Assembly (NCBI RefSeq): GCF_029643425.1
Contig: NZ_CP119106.1
Span: 248,001-312,000, forward strand
Origin: Isoptericola sp. AK164
GTDB taxonomy: Bacteria; Actinomycetota; Actinomycetes; Actinomycetales; Cellulomonadaceae
Direction of reading: 5' to 3'
DNA: 64,000 nucleotides
The translations under genes and the position numbers were made by a program. How positions within the stretch are numbered: position 1 is the first letter of the stretch; every line of letters starts with the position of its first letter. A model generated the notes under the pieces. It saw nothing but the letters and a program-made list of their open reading frames with translations, did no database searches and was not told the DNA's origin. Of the stretch, positions 25,043 to 38,598 are shown in pieces.

Positions 25043-26293
25043 TTAGGTTCGCCAGAGGACGTCGAGCGGAACGGCGGCGAGGCGGTCACCCAGCGGGGCG
25101 CTCGTCGGGCCGGTGTGGAGCACGATGCCGGCGACGAATCGCTTCCCCAGGTGATCCCGCAGCCGCGTGAGCCATCGTGAGTCACCACCTGTGACGCGTG
25201 CGGTGGCCTTGATCTCGAGCCCGGCGACACGGCCGTCGCCCGTCTCGAGGATGAGGTCGACCTCACCGCCGGCCCGGTCGCGATAGTGGCTGATGCGGAA
25301 CGACTCGTCCGCCCACCCCTGGTGCCGACGGATCTCGGCCGACACGAACGCTTCGAGGAGATGCCCCGCCACGTTCCCGTGGGCACCCGGCGCGAGGCCG
25401 TCCGTCGTGACGTTGATGAGGCGGGCTGCCAGTCCGGAGTCCAGGAGCATCGACTTGGGGCGTGCGACGACGCGTTTGGACAGATTGGTCGACCAGGCAG
25501 GTACGCGGTGCACGAGGTACAGGGTCTCGAGCAGGTCGAGCTGGCGGGTCAGGGTCGTGGCCGGGATGTTCAGGGCGTTCGCCAGGCCGCTCACGTTGAG
25601 CTCTTCGGCGTTGCGTGCCGCCAGGATCCTCAGGACGTCCGGGAGCCGGTCCAGCGTCTGCATCGCGGAGACGTCCCGAGCGTCCCGTTCGACGATGCGA
25701 GCCAGGTAGTTGTCCAGCCACTGGTTCCGGCGTCGAGCCGTGGTCCGGGCGAGGGCCTCGGGGTAGGCGCCGGCGACGGCACGGTCCAGGTAGTCGCGAC
25801 GTTCCAGTGCGCCGCCGTGGTCGAGGAAGAGCTCACCGGACAGGAGTCGGTCGACGAAGCGCTCCCGATGGCCTGTGAGCTCACCCTGGCTGAAGCCGAG
25901 GAGCTCGATGCTCTCGGCCCGGCCGGCCAGGCTGTCCTCGGCGGCGGGCAGCCGCAGGAGGTCTGCAGAGCCGGTCAGGAGGAACCTTCCCGGTCGAGGG
26001 TCCTCGTCGACGGCGGCCTTGAGGGCGAGAACGAGTTCCGGGGCTCGCTGGACCTCGTCGATCGCGAGGAGGCGGTCCGGGCTCTGCCGCAGGAACGTCG
26101 TCGGGTCGGATCGTGCCGCGAGACGCGTGAGCTCATCGTCCAGGGTGACCAGTCGGCCCTCTCTGGCCCGGACGAGGTCCCGGACGAGGGTGGTCTTGCC
26201 CACCTGGCGCGCACCCTGGACGACGACGACGCGGGTGTCGTCCAACCCTTCGAGGGCGCGTCCCCGCACATGGCGTTCGATGGTGCTGGTCAC
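25043..26293 (-). CDS. DUF4143 AAA ATPase (AAA_14 type) with PD-(D/E)XK-like C-terminus
   Basis: 416 residues from GTG 26293. Walker A GARQVGKTT (27-35) and Walker B LLAIDEVQ (75-82) form an ATPase domain with sensor LTGSADLLRL. A winged-helix stretch follows (LNVSGLANALNIPATTLTRQLDLLETLYLVHRVP). The DUF4143 C-terminus has GGEVDLILE then GLEIKA, the spaced acidic/Lys pattern of PD-(D/E)XK nuclease folds. The cellular role of this widespread family is unproven. TACCGT (26300-26305) lies six bases before GTG, and a four-copy 22-base-period repeat array sits directly upstream. A second member of the family lies at 31362-32639. Confidence 0.85.
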   Translation of the reverse strand: MTSTIERHVRGRALEGLDDTRVVVVQGARQVGKTTLVRDLVRAREGRLVTLDDELTRLAARSDPTTFLRQSPDRLLAIDEVQRAPELVLALKAAVDEDPRPGRFLLTGSADLLRLPAAEDSLAGRAESIELLGFSQGELTGHRERFVDRLLSGELFLDHGGALERRDYLDRAVAGAYPEALARTTARRRNQWLDNYLARIVERDARDVSAMQTLDRLPDVLRILAARNAEELNVSGLANALNIPATTLTRQLDLLETLYLVHRVPAWSTNLSKRVVARPKSMLLDSGLAARLINVTTDGLAPGAHGNVAGHLLEAFVSAEIRRHQGWADESFRISHYRDRAGGEVDLILETGDGRVAGLEIKATARVTGGDSRWLTRLRDHLGKRFVAGIVLHTGPTSAPLGDRLAAVPLDVLWRT

Positions 26294-26315
26294 AGCGCCA
26301 CGGTACGCGCAATCT

Positions 26316-26393
26316 GGTGGATCCGCACCATCTGCGCGGTGAATTCGCAGTCCGATGGTGGTGGATTCGCAGCATACTGGTGGCGGATCCGCA
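26316..26393. repeat. Four direct repeats, exact 22-base period, in the DUF4143 promoter
   Basis: Four 12-base cores start at 26316, 26338, 26360 and 26382: GGTGGATCCGCA, GGTGAATTCGCA, GGTGGATTCGCA and GGCGGATCCGCA. All lie in the same orientation, 22 bases apart, about two helical turns. The first unit lies 10 bases upstream of the -10 box of the DUF4143 gene. The layout is that of iterons or a cooperative operator array. No other gene start is closer. Confidence 0.85.
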
Positions 26394-30994: not shown

Positions 30995-31345
30995 ATGTCC
31001 GACGGCGGTGGTCCGGACCCGGTCGGGACGTTGCGCGCCCGCCTGGCCGCGGCCGAGGAGCGCATCGGCCGGCAGCGGGCCGTCGTGGACGGCATCGTCG
31101 CCTCGGTGCGGGGCGAGAACGTCGACGACGAGCACGACCCGGAGGGCGCCACGCTCGCCTGGGAGCGCCAGCAGGCCGCCGCGCTGCTCGCCGAGGCGGA
31201 GCGTGAGCGCGACGCGCTGCGGGACGCCCTCGGTCGGGTGGAGGCCGGGACGTACGGCGTGTGCGAGGTGTGCGGGCGGGGCATCCCGGCGGGCCGGCTC
31301 GAGGCGCGGCCGGCGGCGACGCGGTGCGTGGAGCACGCCCGGTGA
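30995..31345 (+). CDS. DksA/TraR-type zinc-finger protein
   Basis: 116 residues. A long N-terminal coiled coil (RARLAAAEERIGRQRAVVDGIVAS, ERQQAAALLAEAERERDALRDALGRV) leads into the zinc finger motif GTYGVCEVCGRGIPAGRLEARPAATRCVEH, i.e. CxxC and a late CxxH. DksA-like proteins enter the RNA polymerase secondary channel; the short actinobacterial members are less studied. It starts two bases after the amidohydrolase stop, so co-transcription is likely. Confidence 0.85.
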   Translation: MSDGGGPDPVGTLRARLAAAEERIGRQRAVVDGIVASVRGENVDDEHDPEGATLAWERQQAAALLAEAERERDALRDALGRVEAGTYGVCEVCGRGIPAGRLEARPAATRCVEHAR

Positions 31346-31361
31346 GCGCCTGCCGGGAGTG

Positions 31362-32639
31362 CTACGGGGCGAGCAGCGCCAGCGGGACGACGGCGACGCC
31401 GTCCTTGCGGCGGTAGGCAGAGGGTCCCGTGGTCACCACGACACGTTCGAGGACGCGGTCGCCGAGCTGGTCGTGCAACCAGTTCAGGTGGCGGACGTCC
31501 TTGTCGCTCACGCTGCCTGCCAGCTTGACCTCGATCGCGACGAGCTTGCGGTCCGGCCGTTCGACGATGATGTCGATCTCGCGGTTCGTGTCCTTGGTGC
31601 GCAGGTGTCCGACGGTCGCTCGAGCGCCGTCAGCGTAGACCTTGATGCTCTGGACCACGAGCGACTCGAACAAGGCTCCGAGCCAGGTGCCGGTGTCGGC
31701 TCGTGACGCAACGCGGTCCCCTTCTCCACGCAACAGACCGTCCTGGGTGACGCCCACGAGTCGTGCCGCGAGTGCCGGGTCCACCAGGTGGTGCTTGGGC
31801 GTCCTGGTCAGGCGCTTGAGGGGGGCGAACAGAGGGAGCCATGCGGGTACCGGGTCGAGGATGAACAGGCGCGAGAGGTGCTCGCGGTAGATGTCGACCG
31901 TCTGGCGAGCGGGTTTGTCGCCGTCGCCGGTGGTGGCCGCGTCGAGAATCGTGCTGTACGAGGCGTCCGTCGCTGTGGCGGCACCGTAGGCGGCGAGCCA
32001 GCCGGTCAGCGCCTCGGGGCGGCGGACGTGGATGCCGTTCTCCGGGAGCTCGCGCTCGACGATCCGTGCCAGGTAGCTGTCGAGCTGGACGTGCCGGGCG
32101 GGCTCCGGGAGGTGTCGGATCCCGGGGAATCCGGACCGGAGGATCTCGTCGACGTAGTGCGGCAGCCCGACCTCCGACGTCCCGGTGATCTCGGGGCGGT
32201 GGCCGTCCAGGAGGGTGCGTAGTGAGACGGTCGGCGTGCTGACGGCTCGTTCGGCGAACGACAGGGGGCGCATCGTGAGGGACACGATGCGCCCGGCGCC
32301 GGAGTGGATCCGGGTTCCGGGCGCGACGCCCGCCGAACCCGCCAGGAGGTATCGCCCGCCGGTGAGGTCGTCGTCGACGGCGCGCTTGATCCGGTCCCAG
32401 ACCGGCGGCTCGAGCTGCCACTCGTCGACGAGGACCGGGGGCGGCACCCGCGTGACCTGGCCGACGTCGGCCGCGACCGTCTGCCGCTGGAGATCGTCCG
32501 CGAGGTTGATCACGGTGCTGGCCAGTTGTGTCGCCGTCGCGGTCTTGCCCACGCCTTTGGCGCCCTCGAGCGCGATGGCGGCCAGGTGCGGGAACAGCTC
32601 GTCCAGGGCGTCGTCGATGATGCGTCGGCGGTACCGCAT
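31362..32639 (-). CDS. Second DUF4143 AAA ATPase
   Basis: 425 residues. Walker A GAKGVGKTATA (about 26-36) and Walker B PVLVDEWQ (67-74), sensor LLAGSAGVAPGT, and the DUF4143 C-terminus with NREIDIIVE followed by VAIEVKLAG give the same ATPase plus PD-(D/E)XK-like layout as the gene at 25043-26293. The two proteins share architecture but only scattered identity, so they are not a recent duplication. TAGATT (32646-32651) lies six bases before the ATG. A four-copy 23-base-period repeat array starts at the same place. Base composition of this upstream region is much lower in GC than its surroundings, hinting at acquisition. Confidence 0.85.
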   Translation of the reverse strand: MRYRRRIIDDALDELFPHLAAIALEGAKGVGKTATATQLASTVINLADDLQRQTVAADVGQVTRVPPPVLVDEWQLEPPVWDRIKRAVDDDLTGGRYLLAGSAGVAPGTRIHSGAGRIVSLTMRPLSFAERAVSTPTVSLRTLLDGHRPEITGTSEVGLPHYVDEILRSGFPGIRHLPEPARHVQLDSYLARIVERELPENGIHVRRPEALTGWLAAYGAATATDASYSTILDAATTGDGDKPARQTVDIYREHLSRLFILDPVPAWLPLFAPLKRLTRTPKHHLVDPALAARLVGVTQDGLLRGEGDRVASRADTGTWLGALFESLVVQSIKVYADGARATVGHLRTKDTNREIDIIVERPDRKLVAIEVKLAGSVSDKDVRHLNWLHDQLGDRVLERVVVTTGPSAYRRKDGVAVVPLALLAP

Positions 32640-32646
32640 GGCGGGA

Positions 32647-32730
32647 ATCTAACAGATGGCCGCCAATCTATCTAACAAATTGCGATGCCCCTATCTGGCA
32701 ATCAGCCGGGTCTCTGTCCGACAGATGGTC
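32647..32730. repeat. Four direct repeats, exact 23-base period, in the second DUF4143 promoter
   Basis: Cores begin at 32647, 32670, 32693 and 32716: ATCTAACAGATGGCC, ATCTAACAAATTGCG, ATCTGGCAATCAGCC and GTCCGACAGATGGTC. Spacing is 23 bases each time and orientation is constant. The first unit overlaps the -10 box of the DUF4143 gene. The sequence is unrelated to the array upstream of 26293, although the design is the same. Confidence 0.8.
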
Positions 32731-32819
32731 GGGTGGAGGAGCCGGAGCGGGCGGCGAGCAGCGGGGCGCCACCGGGACTGCCGGACCTGGAACGGAAGGC
32801 TGGGTGAGCATCTGGTGGC

Positions 32820-33458
32820 GTGTGTGAGCATGAGCGGGTGCGGGTGGAGCCGGTGACCGTCGACGGCGTGGTGAGCCACGTCGTCGACCGGGTGCTGTCC
32901 CAGGACGCGGACCGGCCGGTACGGCTCGTCGTCGACGGCCACCCGTCCACCCACCCGGAGAGCCTCGCCGACGCGCTGGTCCCGCCGCTGCAGGTCGCCG
33001 GGCGCCCCGTGGCGCGGGTCCGGGTCCGGGACTTCTGGCGCCCCGCCTCCCTGCGGCTCGAGCAGGGCCGGCGGGACCCGGACGCGCTGCTCGACGACTG
33101 GATCGACGTCGACGGCCTCAACCGGGAGGTGCTGACCTCCGTCGTGCGGCGCGGCCGCTGGCTGCCGTCCCTGCGCGACCCGGACGTCGACCGCCCGACG
33201 CGCGCGGCGTACGTCGAGGCGGCGCCGGGCACGGTGGTCGTGCTCGACGGGTCGCTCGCCCTCGGCCGGGGGCTCGACGTCGACCTCGCCGTCCACCTCG
33301 CGCTGCGCCCGGCCACCGAGATGCGTCGCACCCCGCTGGACGAGGCGTGGACGCTCGCCGCGTACACCCGGTACCGGCGCGAGGCGGCGCCCGAGCGGCG
33401 GGCCGACGTCGTCGTCCGGTTCGACCACCCGGACCGGCCCGCGCTCCTGGGCCGTTGA
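32820..33458 (+). CDS. Uridine-kinase-like protein with a degenerate P-loop
   Basis: 212 residues if GTG 32820 is used; GTG 32838 or 32844 are alternatives. The fold pattern RPVRLVVDG...LADAL, VARVRVRDFWRPASLRLEQGRRDPDALLDDWIDVDGLNREVL, VVVLDGSLALG and the late RY..EAAPERRADVVVRFDHPD matches actinobacterial uridine kinase/nucleoside kinase family proteins. The Walker A, which should read DGxxxSGKTTLA, is DGHPSTHPESLA (39-50), so both Gly-Lys and the Thr/Ser that bind ATP are missing. It may be a non-catalytic member or bind ligand differently. Confidence 0.65.
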   Translation: MCEHERVRVEPVTVDGVVSHVVDRVLSQDADRPVRLVVDGHPSTHPESLADALVPPLQVAGRPVARVRVRDFWRPASLRLEQGRRDPDALLDDWIDVDGLNREVLTSVVRRGRWLPSLRDPDVDRPTRAAYVEAAPGTVVVLDGSLALGRGLDVDLAVHLALRPATEMRRTPLDEAWTLAAYTRYRREAAPERRADVVVRFDHPDRPALLGR

Positions 33459-36732: not shown

Positions 36733-38598
36733 ATGCGTACGAACGCGCGCCGAGTGCTGCAGTCAGCACTCGTCACAGGCGGCCTGCTGGTCGCCGGGGC
36801 CTGGACGGCCCACGCTGCCGAGGACGACGTCGTCGACGTCGAGATCGGCGAGGACACCTCGGTCGAGCTCAACCTGGCCGAGGTCACCGAGGAGTCGAAC
36901 GACGCCTCGCTCGACACCCCGATCGACCTGCCCGAGGTCGACACCGAGCCGGTCGAGGAGCTCGTCGACGACATCGTCGGCGAGGACGGGCCGGTCGACG
37001 ACGTCCTGGGTGCCGACGAGCCCACCGAGACCACGACGGACGACGTCGTGGACGCCGTCGCCGAGGACGTCAGCCAGACCGTCGAGGACGCCACCGCCGG
37101 TGACGTCGAGGCGGTCGTGGAGGACGTCGCCGGTGAGGACGGGATCGTCGACGACGTGATCGAGGACGGCGGGTCCGACTCCGCCGCCGACGGCACGGCC
37201 GGGATGGTCACCGAGACGGTGGAGGACGTGGCCGGGACGGTCACCGAGACCGCCGAGGACACCGACGGGTCCACGGGGTCCGACGGGGCCGTCTCGGAGA
37301 CGGTCGATGGGCTGCTCGGCGAGGACGGGGTCGTCGACGACGTCCTCGGTGCCGACGAGCCCTCCGAGGGCGTGACCGACCGAGTCGTCGAGGAGACCCT
37401 CGACAACGTCGAGAACACCGTGGACGACGCCCTGGAGGGCGACGTGGACGCCGTGGTGGACGACGTCGTGGCCGACGAGGGCGTGGTCGACGACGCGCTG
37501 GAGGACGGCGGCGTGGACGCCGCTCTCGACGAGGTCGACGCCGTGGTCACGGACGTCGACGGTGCGCTGGGCGCCGACGGGGCCGTCTCGGAGACGGTCG
37601 ATGGGCTGCTCGGCGAGGACGGGGTCGTCGACGACGTCCTCGGTGCCGACGAGCCCTCCGAGGGCGTGACCGACCGAGTCGTCGAGGAGACCCTCGACAA
37701 CGTCGACGGCACGCTCGACGAGCTGCTCGACGGCGACCTCGACGGTGTGGCCCGCGAGGTCCTCGACGAGGACGGTGTCGTGGACGACGCCCTGGAGGAC
37801 GGTGGCCTCGACACGGTCGTCGCCGACGTCGTGGACTCCACCGGCACGGTCGACGACCTGCTCGGGACGGATGACCTCGTCGAGGGCACCGTGGACGGGA
37901 TCGCCGGTGAGGACGGCCTGGTCGACGACATCGTCGGGCCGGACGAGCCCGAGGAGGGCGTCACCGACGGACTGCTCGACGAGATCCGGAACGACCTCGA
38001 CGAGACCGTGACGGAGCTGCTCGAGGGTGACCTCGTCGGCGTCGTGGACTCGGTGCTCGACGAGGACGGCCTGGTCGACGACATCGTCGAGAACGGTGCC
38101 GGCGACGGTTCCGACGGTGGGGACGACGGTTCCGACGGTGGGGACGACGGGTCGGACGGGACCGACGGGTCGGACGGGACTGATGGTTCCGACGGCTCCG
38201 ACGGGACTGATGGTTCCGACGGGACTGACGGCACCGACGGGACCGACGGCTCGGACGGCACCGACGGCTCCGACGGGACTGATGGTTCCGACGGCTCGGA
38301 CGGCACCGACGCGAGCAACGGGTCGGGCAACGGTCCCGACGGGTCGGGCGACGGCTCCGGTGGCACCACGGATGGCATGACGACCGGCGGGTCCGGCGGG
38401 TCCTCGGGCGTGCTGACCTCGTCGTCCACGTCGTCCGGCGGTTCGGCCACGACGGTGACGTCTTCCGGCACCGGGACGCTCCCGCAGACGGGGGCCGAGA
38501 CCGGTCTGCTCGGTCTGGCCGGCCTGCTGGCCGCGCTGGGGGCCGCCCTGGTGGCCCTGCGTCGTCGGACGCTCCGCCCGGGCGTCGTGACCGGCTGA
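36733..38598 (+). CDS. LPQTG-anchored acidic repeat surface protein
   Basis: 621 residues. A signal peptide (residues about 1-28, AHAAEDD cleavage) leads into roughly 430 residues of Asp/Glu/Val/Gly repeats built on (E)DG(V/L)VDD(V/I) units, then an SDGTDG tract (38100-38310). The C-terminus is a sorting signal: LPQTG (583-587), hydrophobic helix [19 protein letters not shown] and RRR tail. A sortase would link it to peptidoglycan; no sortase gene lies in the window. Highly acidic repeats resemble calcium- or cation-binding stalks. Two internal segments are identical at DNA level. It is paired with the previous exported gene through the inverted repeat. Confidence 0.8.
37280..37412 (+). repeat. 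133-base perfect direct repeat, copy 1
   Basis: Identical base for base to 37574-37706, 294 bases (98 codons) downstream and in frame. Perfect identity at synonymous positions points to a recent duplication or gene conversion within the surface-protein gene. Confidence 0.95.
37574..37706 (+). repeat. 133-base perfect direct repeat, copy 2
   Basis: Second copy of the repeat at 37280-37412. Recombination between the copies would delete or add 98 residues without a frameshift, so length polymorphism between strains is expected. Confidence 0.95.

Follow-up and report, generated by a model that had tools for sequence, protein, structure and literature searches.

Each of the two DUF4143 genes in the window (the whole 64,000-nt stretch of the Isoptericola sp. 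AK164 chromosome analysed here) is preceded by an array of phased direct repeats located at the gene's own predicted promoter, and the array patterns tested match this genome solely at these two places. Such arrays occur in marked excess upstream of DUF4143 genes across the family, and their letters covary with residues of the helix predicted to read DNA. This concerted change points to proteins that each read and control the gene encoding them, and we consider it likely that a PDC-S01 protein binds and represses its own promoter through its private array, with one repeat for each winged helix.

Phased arrays at the predicted promoters of genes A and B

The array and promoter elements of gene B are as follows.

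32646..32651, minus strand: TAGATT, probable -10 box of gene B, overlapped by copy 1 (sequence, by eye)
32647..32661, minus strand: array B copy 1, promoter-proximal core, ATCTAACAGATGGCC (direct reading and repeat search; shuffles)
32670..32684, minus strand: array B copy 2, ATCTAACAAATTGCG (direct reading and repeat search; shuffles)
32693..32707, minus strand: array B copy 3, diverged, ATCTGGCAATCAGCC (direct reading, missed by the repeat search; shuffles)
32716..32730, minus strand: array B copy 4, GTCCGACAGATGGTC (direct reading and repeat search; shuffles)

Array B lies just upstream of the start of gene B, which is carried on the minus strand, and consists of four 15-nt cores. Direct reading confirmed the preliminary description in that these cores begin at exact 23-base steps (start-to-start distances of 23, 23 and 23), and a repeat search retrieved three of the four copies in register. 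The phased-repeat score, a log-odds score for phased copies, is 7.3 for three copies and 4.9 for four at period 23, and none of 1000 dinucleotide shuffles reached the three-copy or four-copy value. TAGATT ends 6 nt before the ATG of gene B and every base except its first falls inside the last copy of the array, such that the direct repeats overlap the gene's own predicted core promoter. As predicted from the sequence this promoter is apparently leaderless, and TAGATT is placed as expected for a leaderless transcript, such that bound protein would cover the -10 box.

The corresponding elements of gene A are listed below.

25043..26293, minus strand: gene A, AAA_14 and DUF4143, 416 aa, PDC-S01 (Pfam, PADLOC)
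26300..26305, minus strand: TACCGT, probable -10 box of gene A, 6 nt before the GTG start (sequence, by eye)
26316..26393, minus strand: array A, four cores TGCGRATYCNCC in 22-nt steps beginning at 26316, 26338, 26360 and 26382 (repeat search, shuffles)

Array A has four copies at period 22 with a score reached by none of 1000 dinucleotide shuffles, and it is positioned upstream of the -10 box, so that activation would also be possible at gene A. Comparison of the two loci bears out much of what had been proposed for them: proteins A and B, 30% identical and both containing AAA_14 and DUF4143 according to Pfam, are two divergent members of one family, the number of copies is the same at four each, and both genes look leaderless, with a TANNNT hexamer ending 6 nt before each start codon. 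The proposal of a common helical phasing is only approximately right, since the period is 22 for array A but 23 for array B. The two motifs, described as unrelated, do appear so by eye, but a frame beginning TGCxAA is common to many DUF4143-family arrays and, judged from their letters, arrays A and B could both be variants of it. The Isoptericola sp. AK164 genome contains three DUF4143 genes, the third of which is preceded by a weak 24-nt pattern only (score 4.2, reached by 6 of 40 shuffles).

Genomic uniqueness, gain and loss

Allowing up to three mismatches, two correctly spaced B cores are found at one place in the 3.58-Mb genome, at gene B; this pattern is strict, picking just one of the three adjacent core pairs within array B, so weaker B-like sites may exist elsewhere in the genome. 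At the same tolerance the A pattern matches three overlapping places, pairs of its four copies, all at the gene A promoter, while a reversed-pattern control found no place in the genome. A regulon extending beyond the gene's own promoter was considered and rejected, the tested A and B patterns (the latter strict) having genomic matches solely at their own promoters. When the locus is compared with the 85%-identical orthologue of I. halotolerans, 48 of 60 core positions are kept, as against 14 of 32 in the spacers and 28 of 92 beyond the array.

The comparison with congeners identifies the following module.

31346..32772 (approximate), no strand assigned: gene-plus-array module missing from the empty sites of congeners (congener comparison)

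Among the 17 other genomes of the genus, 10 have a dksA-like gene directly adjoining the 212-aa frame that follows array B, with gene B and its array absent between them; the remaining seven contain neither that dksA-like gene nor gene B in the stretch compared. On the left of the ten empty sites homology mostly breaks off at 31345-31349, where the dksA stop codon lies, and on the right it is picked up again at 32799-32832. As these sites lack both gene B and the array, the two appear to have been gained or lost together. The orthologue adjoins the same dksA in I. halotolerans, as it also does in G006, a genome whose gene is more than 90% identical to the I. halotolerans orthologue and which may belong to the same species. 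The 212-aa frame itself (window positions 32820-33458) has no Pfam match at E 0.01; most of its length is present in 15 of 17 congeners, part of it in G015, and a short, probably unspecific match in G016. Further along, at 36733-38598, the window holds a repeat-rich frame with 294-nt and 18-27-nt tandem repeats that ends in LPQTG and a hydrophobic stretch, and is probably a sortase-anchored surface protein.

Protein B, its domains and fold relatives

The coding features of gene B are as follows.

31362..32639, minus strand: gene B, AAA_14, winged helix and DUF4143 (PD-(D/E)XK-like), 425 aa, PADLOC PDC-S01 (Pfam, PADLOC, AlphaFold2)
31785..32018, minus strand: predicted winged-helix segment, residues 208-285 (AlphaFold2 helices 208-220, 228-235 and 245-257)
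31869..31907, minus strand: predicted recognition helix, residues 245-257, covarying with the repeat (covariation and AlphaFold2)
31371..31778, minus strand: predicted PD-(D/E)XK-like domain, residues 288-423, with E354, D356, E370 and K372 (alignment, AlphaFold2)

Both window genes match the PADLOC PDC-S01 profile over almost their full length (E 1.4e-73 and 9.5e-162) and at E 0.01 both proteins contain the Pfam domains AAA_14 (PF13173) and DUF4143 (PF13635), which places them in PDC-S01. At the same cut-off Pfam reveals no replication-initiator, transposase or recombinase domain in either protein; other AAA, MarR and nSTAND3 models match gene A only, below the cut-off, and the winged-helix segment of gene A gives weak MarR/ArsR profile matches that are likewise below the cut-offs. 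The AlphaFold2 model of protein B (pLDDT 92.6) locates residues 245 and 246 at the start of the recognition helix and presents strands 354-360 and 366-371 within the PD-(D/E)XK-like domain, where E354, D356, E370 and K372 are invariant among 48 aligned relatives. Protein B thus displays the D ... E-x-K motif in an alpha/beta core by which PD-(D/E)XK nucleases are recognized, and is predicted from motif and model to be nuclease-like.

No solved chain was matched by sequence at E 0.01. By fold, the nearest relatives after the archaeal ATPases are NLRs and CED-4, with the archaeal AAA+ ATPases PABY2304 (2qen) and SSO1545 (2fna), RPP1, CED-4 and Orc/Cdc6 showing 11-16% identity to protein B; the two best fold alignments stop at residue 296 and leave out most of the nuclease-like domain.

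Excess of arrays upstream of DUF4143 genes

DUF4143 accounts for 34 matches in 13 of the 18 genomes of the genus, and among the matches listed occurs in at least 55 of 149 genomes of the order and at least 76 of 197 of the phylum. The survey covers part of these listed matches from genus, order and phylum and, after leaving out seven AAA_14 loci, 20 control stretches and 27 profile hits that fell short of full length or had no clear Walker A, comprises 157 full-length genes, two of which lie too near a contig end, giving 155 that were scored. Start codons were set by rule, with the annotated ones used on annotated plasmids, the 194-nt stretch upstream was scanned, and an array was called at a score of at least 6 at period 22 or 23. 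The preliminary description had proposed testing whether phased repeats are over-represented upstream of DUF4143 genes, and they are: 94 of 155 genes reach the threshold, 17 at period 22 and 77 at period 23, compared with none of 2060 non-overlapping windows of the same length, coding or not, from 20 random 20-kb stretches of this and related genomes. Two control families of the same order, MarR_2 and AAA_21 (30 loci each), likewise gave 0 of 1380 and 0 of 1497 overlapping windows, and elsewhere in the DUF4143 loci themselves 4 of 7856 overlapping windows scored at 22-23. Three of these four correspond to the array of a DUF4143 remnant (L138) and to a second array covered by two overlapping windows (L141), while the fourth (L114) is unexplained. 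Among the loci analysed early, 48 of 77 beat all 40 of their shuffles.

An origin of the phased repeats by chance or base composition might be suspected for single arrays, which are short and diverged, and indeed Tandem Repeats Finder at a minimum score of 40 lists array A but misses array B; given the survey, the shuffles, the two control families and the windows elsewhere in the same loci, this origin is refuted and we assign it practically no probability. Periodicity of coding sequence was also tried as a source of the arrays and rejected: 67 of the 2060 control windows score at least 6 at some period, but these periods never fall at 22-23 and are multiples of 3 in 65 cases.

In gene-strand coordinates, L138 shows at about 2134-2330 a second array beside an intact DUF4143 gene, followed by the two ends of an apparently deleted DUF4143 gene, and L141 at about 2134-2425 a second array with a motif identical to that of the gene's own array.

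The B-like set, which overlaps the survey in a few orthologues, comprises 82 full-length genes from the best 80 named loci listed by similarity to gene B and one viral locus. The closest named relatives among the matches listed are from Isoptericola, at 85% and, in part, 93% identity. The latter, L233 from Isoptericola chiayiensis, matches from residue 112 in two pieces and looks truncated or broken; not being full length, it was left out of the set. The best period is 23 in 81 of the 82 genes, and 68 score at least 6. The distance from the end of TANNNT to the start codon is 6 or 7 nt in 55 of them (exactly 6 nt in 38) and 4-12 nt in 62, while just four of the 82 have a Shine-Dalgarno-like sequence. 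Over 162 arrays the number of copies is three in 116, four in 38 and more in eight, and the median distance from the end of the last core to the start codon is 19 nt.

Spread and architecture of the sites

Plasmid records matching gene B number 195 and those matching gene A 372, in overlapping lists; the plasmid and phage loci studied were chosen by hand from the rows listed. In a first set nine of ten loci, from Chlorobiota, Bacillota, Actinomycetota, alpha- and gammaproteobacteria, Bacteroidota and a phage scaffold, have a 22-23-nt array reached by none of 100 shuffles, the exception without such an array being a Pseudomonas plasmid. A second set of ten rows spread down the ranking of gene A plasmid matches, which are more diverged, yielded a 22-nt array in three (0, 1 and 0 of 100 shuffles) and a 32-nt array on a Treponema plasmid (0 of 100), with neither in the remaining six; in two of these six the best periods, still unplaced, are 16 nt (0 of 100 shuffles) and 30 nt (1 of 100). 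Carriage by viruses is seen in one IMG/VR locus confirmed among 13 stretches with the peptide pattern and in four phage records.

Many plasmid copies, together with gain or loss of gene and array as a unit, might suggest that the arrays are remnants of mobility, such as ends, target sites or replication iterons, with no regulatory role. Scanned for upstream of the genes, the arrays are found there, with the last core so near the start codon; they lie on or next to the promoter and vary in step with the recognition helix, and proteins A and B have no replication-initiator, transposase or recombinase domain detectable by Pfam at E 0.01, all of which makes an origin as mobility remnants very improbable in comparison with a role in control of the gene.

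A tree of the 157 genes places the 22-nt arrays mainly in one subclade, which includes gene A, with a period of 23 nt prevailing elsewhere in a large clade. No 22-23-nt array at threshold was found for 61 of the 155 scored genes; two of these have a 24-nt and three a 32-33-nt array. In a separate small clade part of the genes carry 32-34-nt direct repeats, which together with the Treponema plasmid copy were found at L116/L318, L144/L327, L329, L166, L162 and L317. Shuffles reached the score in 0 of 50 for three of the seven scannable loci of this clade (L318, L327 and L329; L322 excluded) and in 3, 7, 9 and 11 of 50 for L328, L321, L320 and L319 respectively; as L318, L321, L327 and L328 were already in the earlier set, L329 represents one new clear case. 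An inverted repeat reached by at most 1 of 60 shuffles, in the region from 75 nt before to 12 nt after the start, is present in 27 of 59 genes without a 22-24-nt array at threshold (among them L072, L089, L081, L092, L093, L165, L166 and L159), compared with 3 of 48 array genes, every second one having been tested, and 8 of 120 control windows. That the array-less clades lack any site at all can therefore be rejected in part. These inverted repeats and 32-34-nt arrays in genes without the common array indicate that a site at the own promoter seems widespread in the DUF4143 family, and its geometry (two turns, three turns or a palindrome, at 10.5 bp per turn of DNA) tends to follow the clade.

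The inverted repeats of Pseudomonas and Azotobacter plasmid copies (L305 and L309) appear by eye very similar and extend over the ATG. Some genomes contain many DUF4143 paralogues, among the matches listed 23 in G136 and 17 each in G122, G294, G309 and G338, and the motifs of those G136 copies that were fetched and bear arrays differ by eye.

The location of these sites also bears on whether they serve repression. Instead, the array could be a platform for an activator or sensor, on whose repeats the protein oligomerizes to recruit polymerase or await an invader. Array A does lie upstream of its -10 box, NLRs and CED-4 have been solved as oligomers, and three or four copies are present in 154 of 162 arrays. 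Nevertheless, the last copy overlaps or adjoins the -10 box at gene B and, as judged by position, in most of the B-like set of 82 genes, an arrangement more in keeping with exclusion of polymerase, and the inverted-repeat relatives likewise carry their site near the start. We therefore regard the platform as unlikely, and repression rather than activation as probable.

Covariation of the repeat with the predicted recognition helix

The covariation analysis used 155 period-23 genes with a score of at least 5, reduced to 151 by removal of four near-duplicates (>90% identical). Their repeat units were aligned to one register from the DNA alone, and mutual information with the protein columns was corrected for column averages. 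The strongest pairs overall link residues 245 and 246 to repeat columns 13-14 and 16-17, with peaks for residue 245 and column 14 (z 8.2) and residue 246 and column 17 (z 7.5), and the observed maximum of 0.194 compares with at most 0.111 in ten permutations. On permutation within clades, at three cluster cuts, residue 246 with column 17 and residue 245 with column 13 were the top two every time; residue 276 with column 7 was in the top five at two of the three cuts, and the 9-residue windows best linked to columns 13-17 begin at 237-242. Pairs outside the winged helix (E197, V359 and D350) are also prominent within clades, and in the within-clade permutation the winged-helix segment taken together does not exceed the average residue.

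The pairings of residue and letter make chemical sense. With arginine or lysine at position 245, column 14 is G in a fraction of 0.92 (n=107), compared with 0.27 for other residues (n=44), an association present in four of the five clades with at least four genes. D245 goes with C at column 14 (0.93, n=5), N246 with C at column 17 (0.86, n=7) and Q246 with A at column 17 (0.64, n=12), while column 13 is mostly T with R245 (0.73) and G with K245 (0.74). Pairs of proteins below 36% identity that share residues 244-246 have a right-half similarity of 0.58 (n=30), against 0.33 for all such pairs. Among 367 residues Q246 comes out on top for the entire right half in 75 matched pairs (r = 0.40), with V417 and R175 close behind, whereas column by column R175 leads, Q246 is twelfth and residue 245 is outside the 30 top-listed. 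The matched-pairs test gives a weak and less specific signal that extends beyond the winged helix. Residues 91-150 of the AAA part show a correlation with the right half that exceeds the null (0.113, 0 of 100), and the link between the winged helix and the left half is not significant (9 of 100). Among held-out plasmid proteins, for which 9 of 11 loci were covered, those with arginine or lysine at 245 have G at column 14 in four of six cases and not in the other two, and a D245 protein aligns G rather than C at column 14, with a poor register fit. The covariation with winged-helix recognition residues that had been put forward as a check is thus found, residues 246 and 245 being strongest in all three within-clade tests and the matched pairs giving a weaker signal. 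Together with the excess of arrays it supports the earlier suggestion of a coherent protein-DNA system with a specificity that evolves with the protein, and makes physical binding of the array by the DUF4143 protein likely.

The reader might alternatively be a separate host DNA-binding protein, for which there is a precedent in small repressors that act on direct repeats of defence promoters, such as RptR (PMC12255303). We hold this to be highly improbable, because the repeat letters covary within clades with residues of the DUF4143 protein, and because the arrays travel with the gene, both turning up on plasmids from several phyla and both missing from the empty sites.

Discussion

In the self-repression that we favour, the gene B product would be an AAA+ protein of the STAND/archaeal-ATPase-like kind, carrying a winged helix and a PD-(D/E)XK-like domain. 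Its winged helix would read one repeat per subunit, a stoichiometry that we infer, with several subunits arranged in a row at intervals of about two helical turns on the array of their own leaderless promoter, where they would exclude RNA polymerase and keep the level of the protein low. Each family member would own an array, and array and recognition helix would change together, so that paralogues in one cell should not cross-regulate. The function of these proteins in defence is presumed from their listing as a candidate by PADLOC. More tentatively, as a possibility that we would not place above the speculative, PDC-S01 may be a two-part system of protein and private array in which assembly of an ordered row acts as the sensor; disturbance by an invader would then open the promoter and free an active nuclease, and private specificities would keep paralogues apart in the manner of an immune repertoire.

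DUF4143 proteins form a common and unexplained bacterial gene family and are candidates for virus defence. A self-specific site in much of the PDC-S01 family offers a handle on it, in the form of a predicted binding partner and a promoter for a reporter, while the predicted reading helix offers the start of a residue-to-base code. The array further provides a mark by which degraded gene copies may be recognized, and well over 100 natural protein-DNA pairs with diverged specificity constitute a resource for learning winged-helix recognition.

Comparison with known systems

Tandem direct repeats about two helical turns apart that are bound by winged-helix proteins are familiar from the iteron arrays of plasmid initiators. 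The arrays in the window differ from these in being chromosomal and in lying at the promoter of the gene itself, and proteins A and B are without an initiator domain (Pfam, E 0.01). The DUF4143 family presumably includes Rv2008c and Rv3179, and the accessible part of the mainly open-access literature on DUF4143, COG1373, AAA_14, PDC-S01 and Rv2008c/Rv3179 yielded no description of such arrays.

PDC-S01 itself has been reported as an ATPase fused to a PD-(D/E)XK domain that ranks fourth in frequency among prokaryotic defence systems; most candidates of its kind are said still to await validation (PMC12988326). The available description of PDC-S01 as a phage defence candidate (PMC13356809) mentions no cis element, in contrast to the gene plus private array presented here.

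The closest mode of action that we found described appears, by analogy, to be that of RptR, a repressor of a defence-island promoter in E. coli which binds three direct repeats, two of them overlapping the -10 box of its own defence promoter (PMC12255303). The likeness lies in direct repeats that overlap the own core promoter, which at gene B is a predicted one. RptR is however described as a separate small homodimer acting on 9-bp repeats with a conserved TAGCTA core (PMC12255303), whereas in the DUF4143 family the predicted reader would be the effector itself, the repeats are spaced at 22-23 nt and the motifs differ between paralogues.
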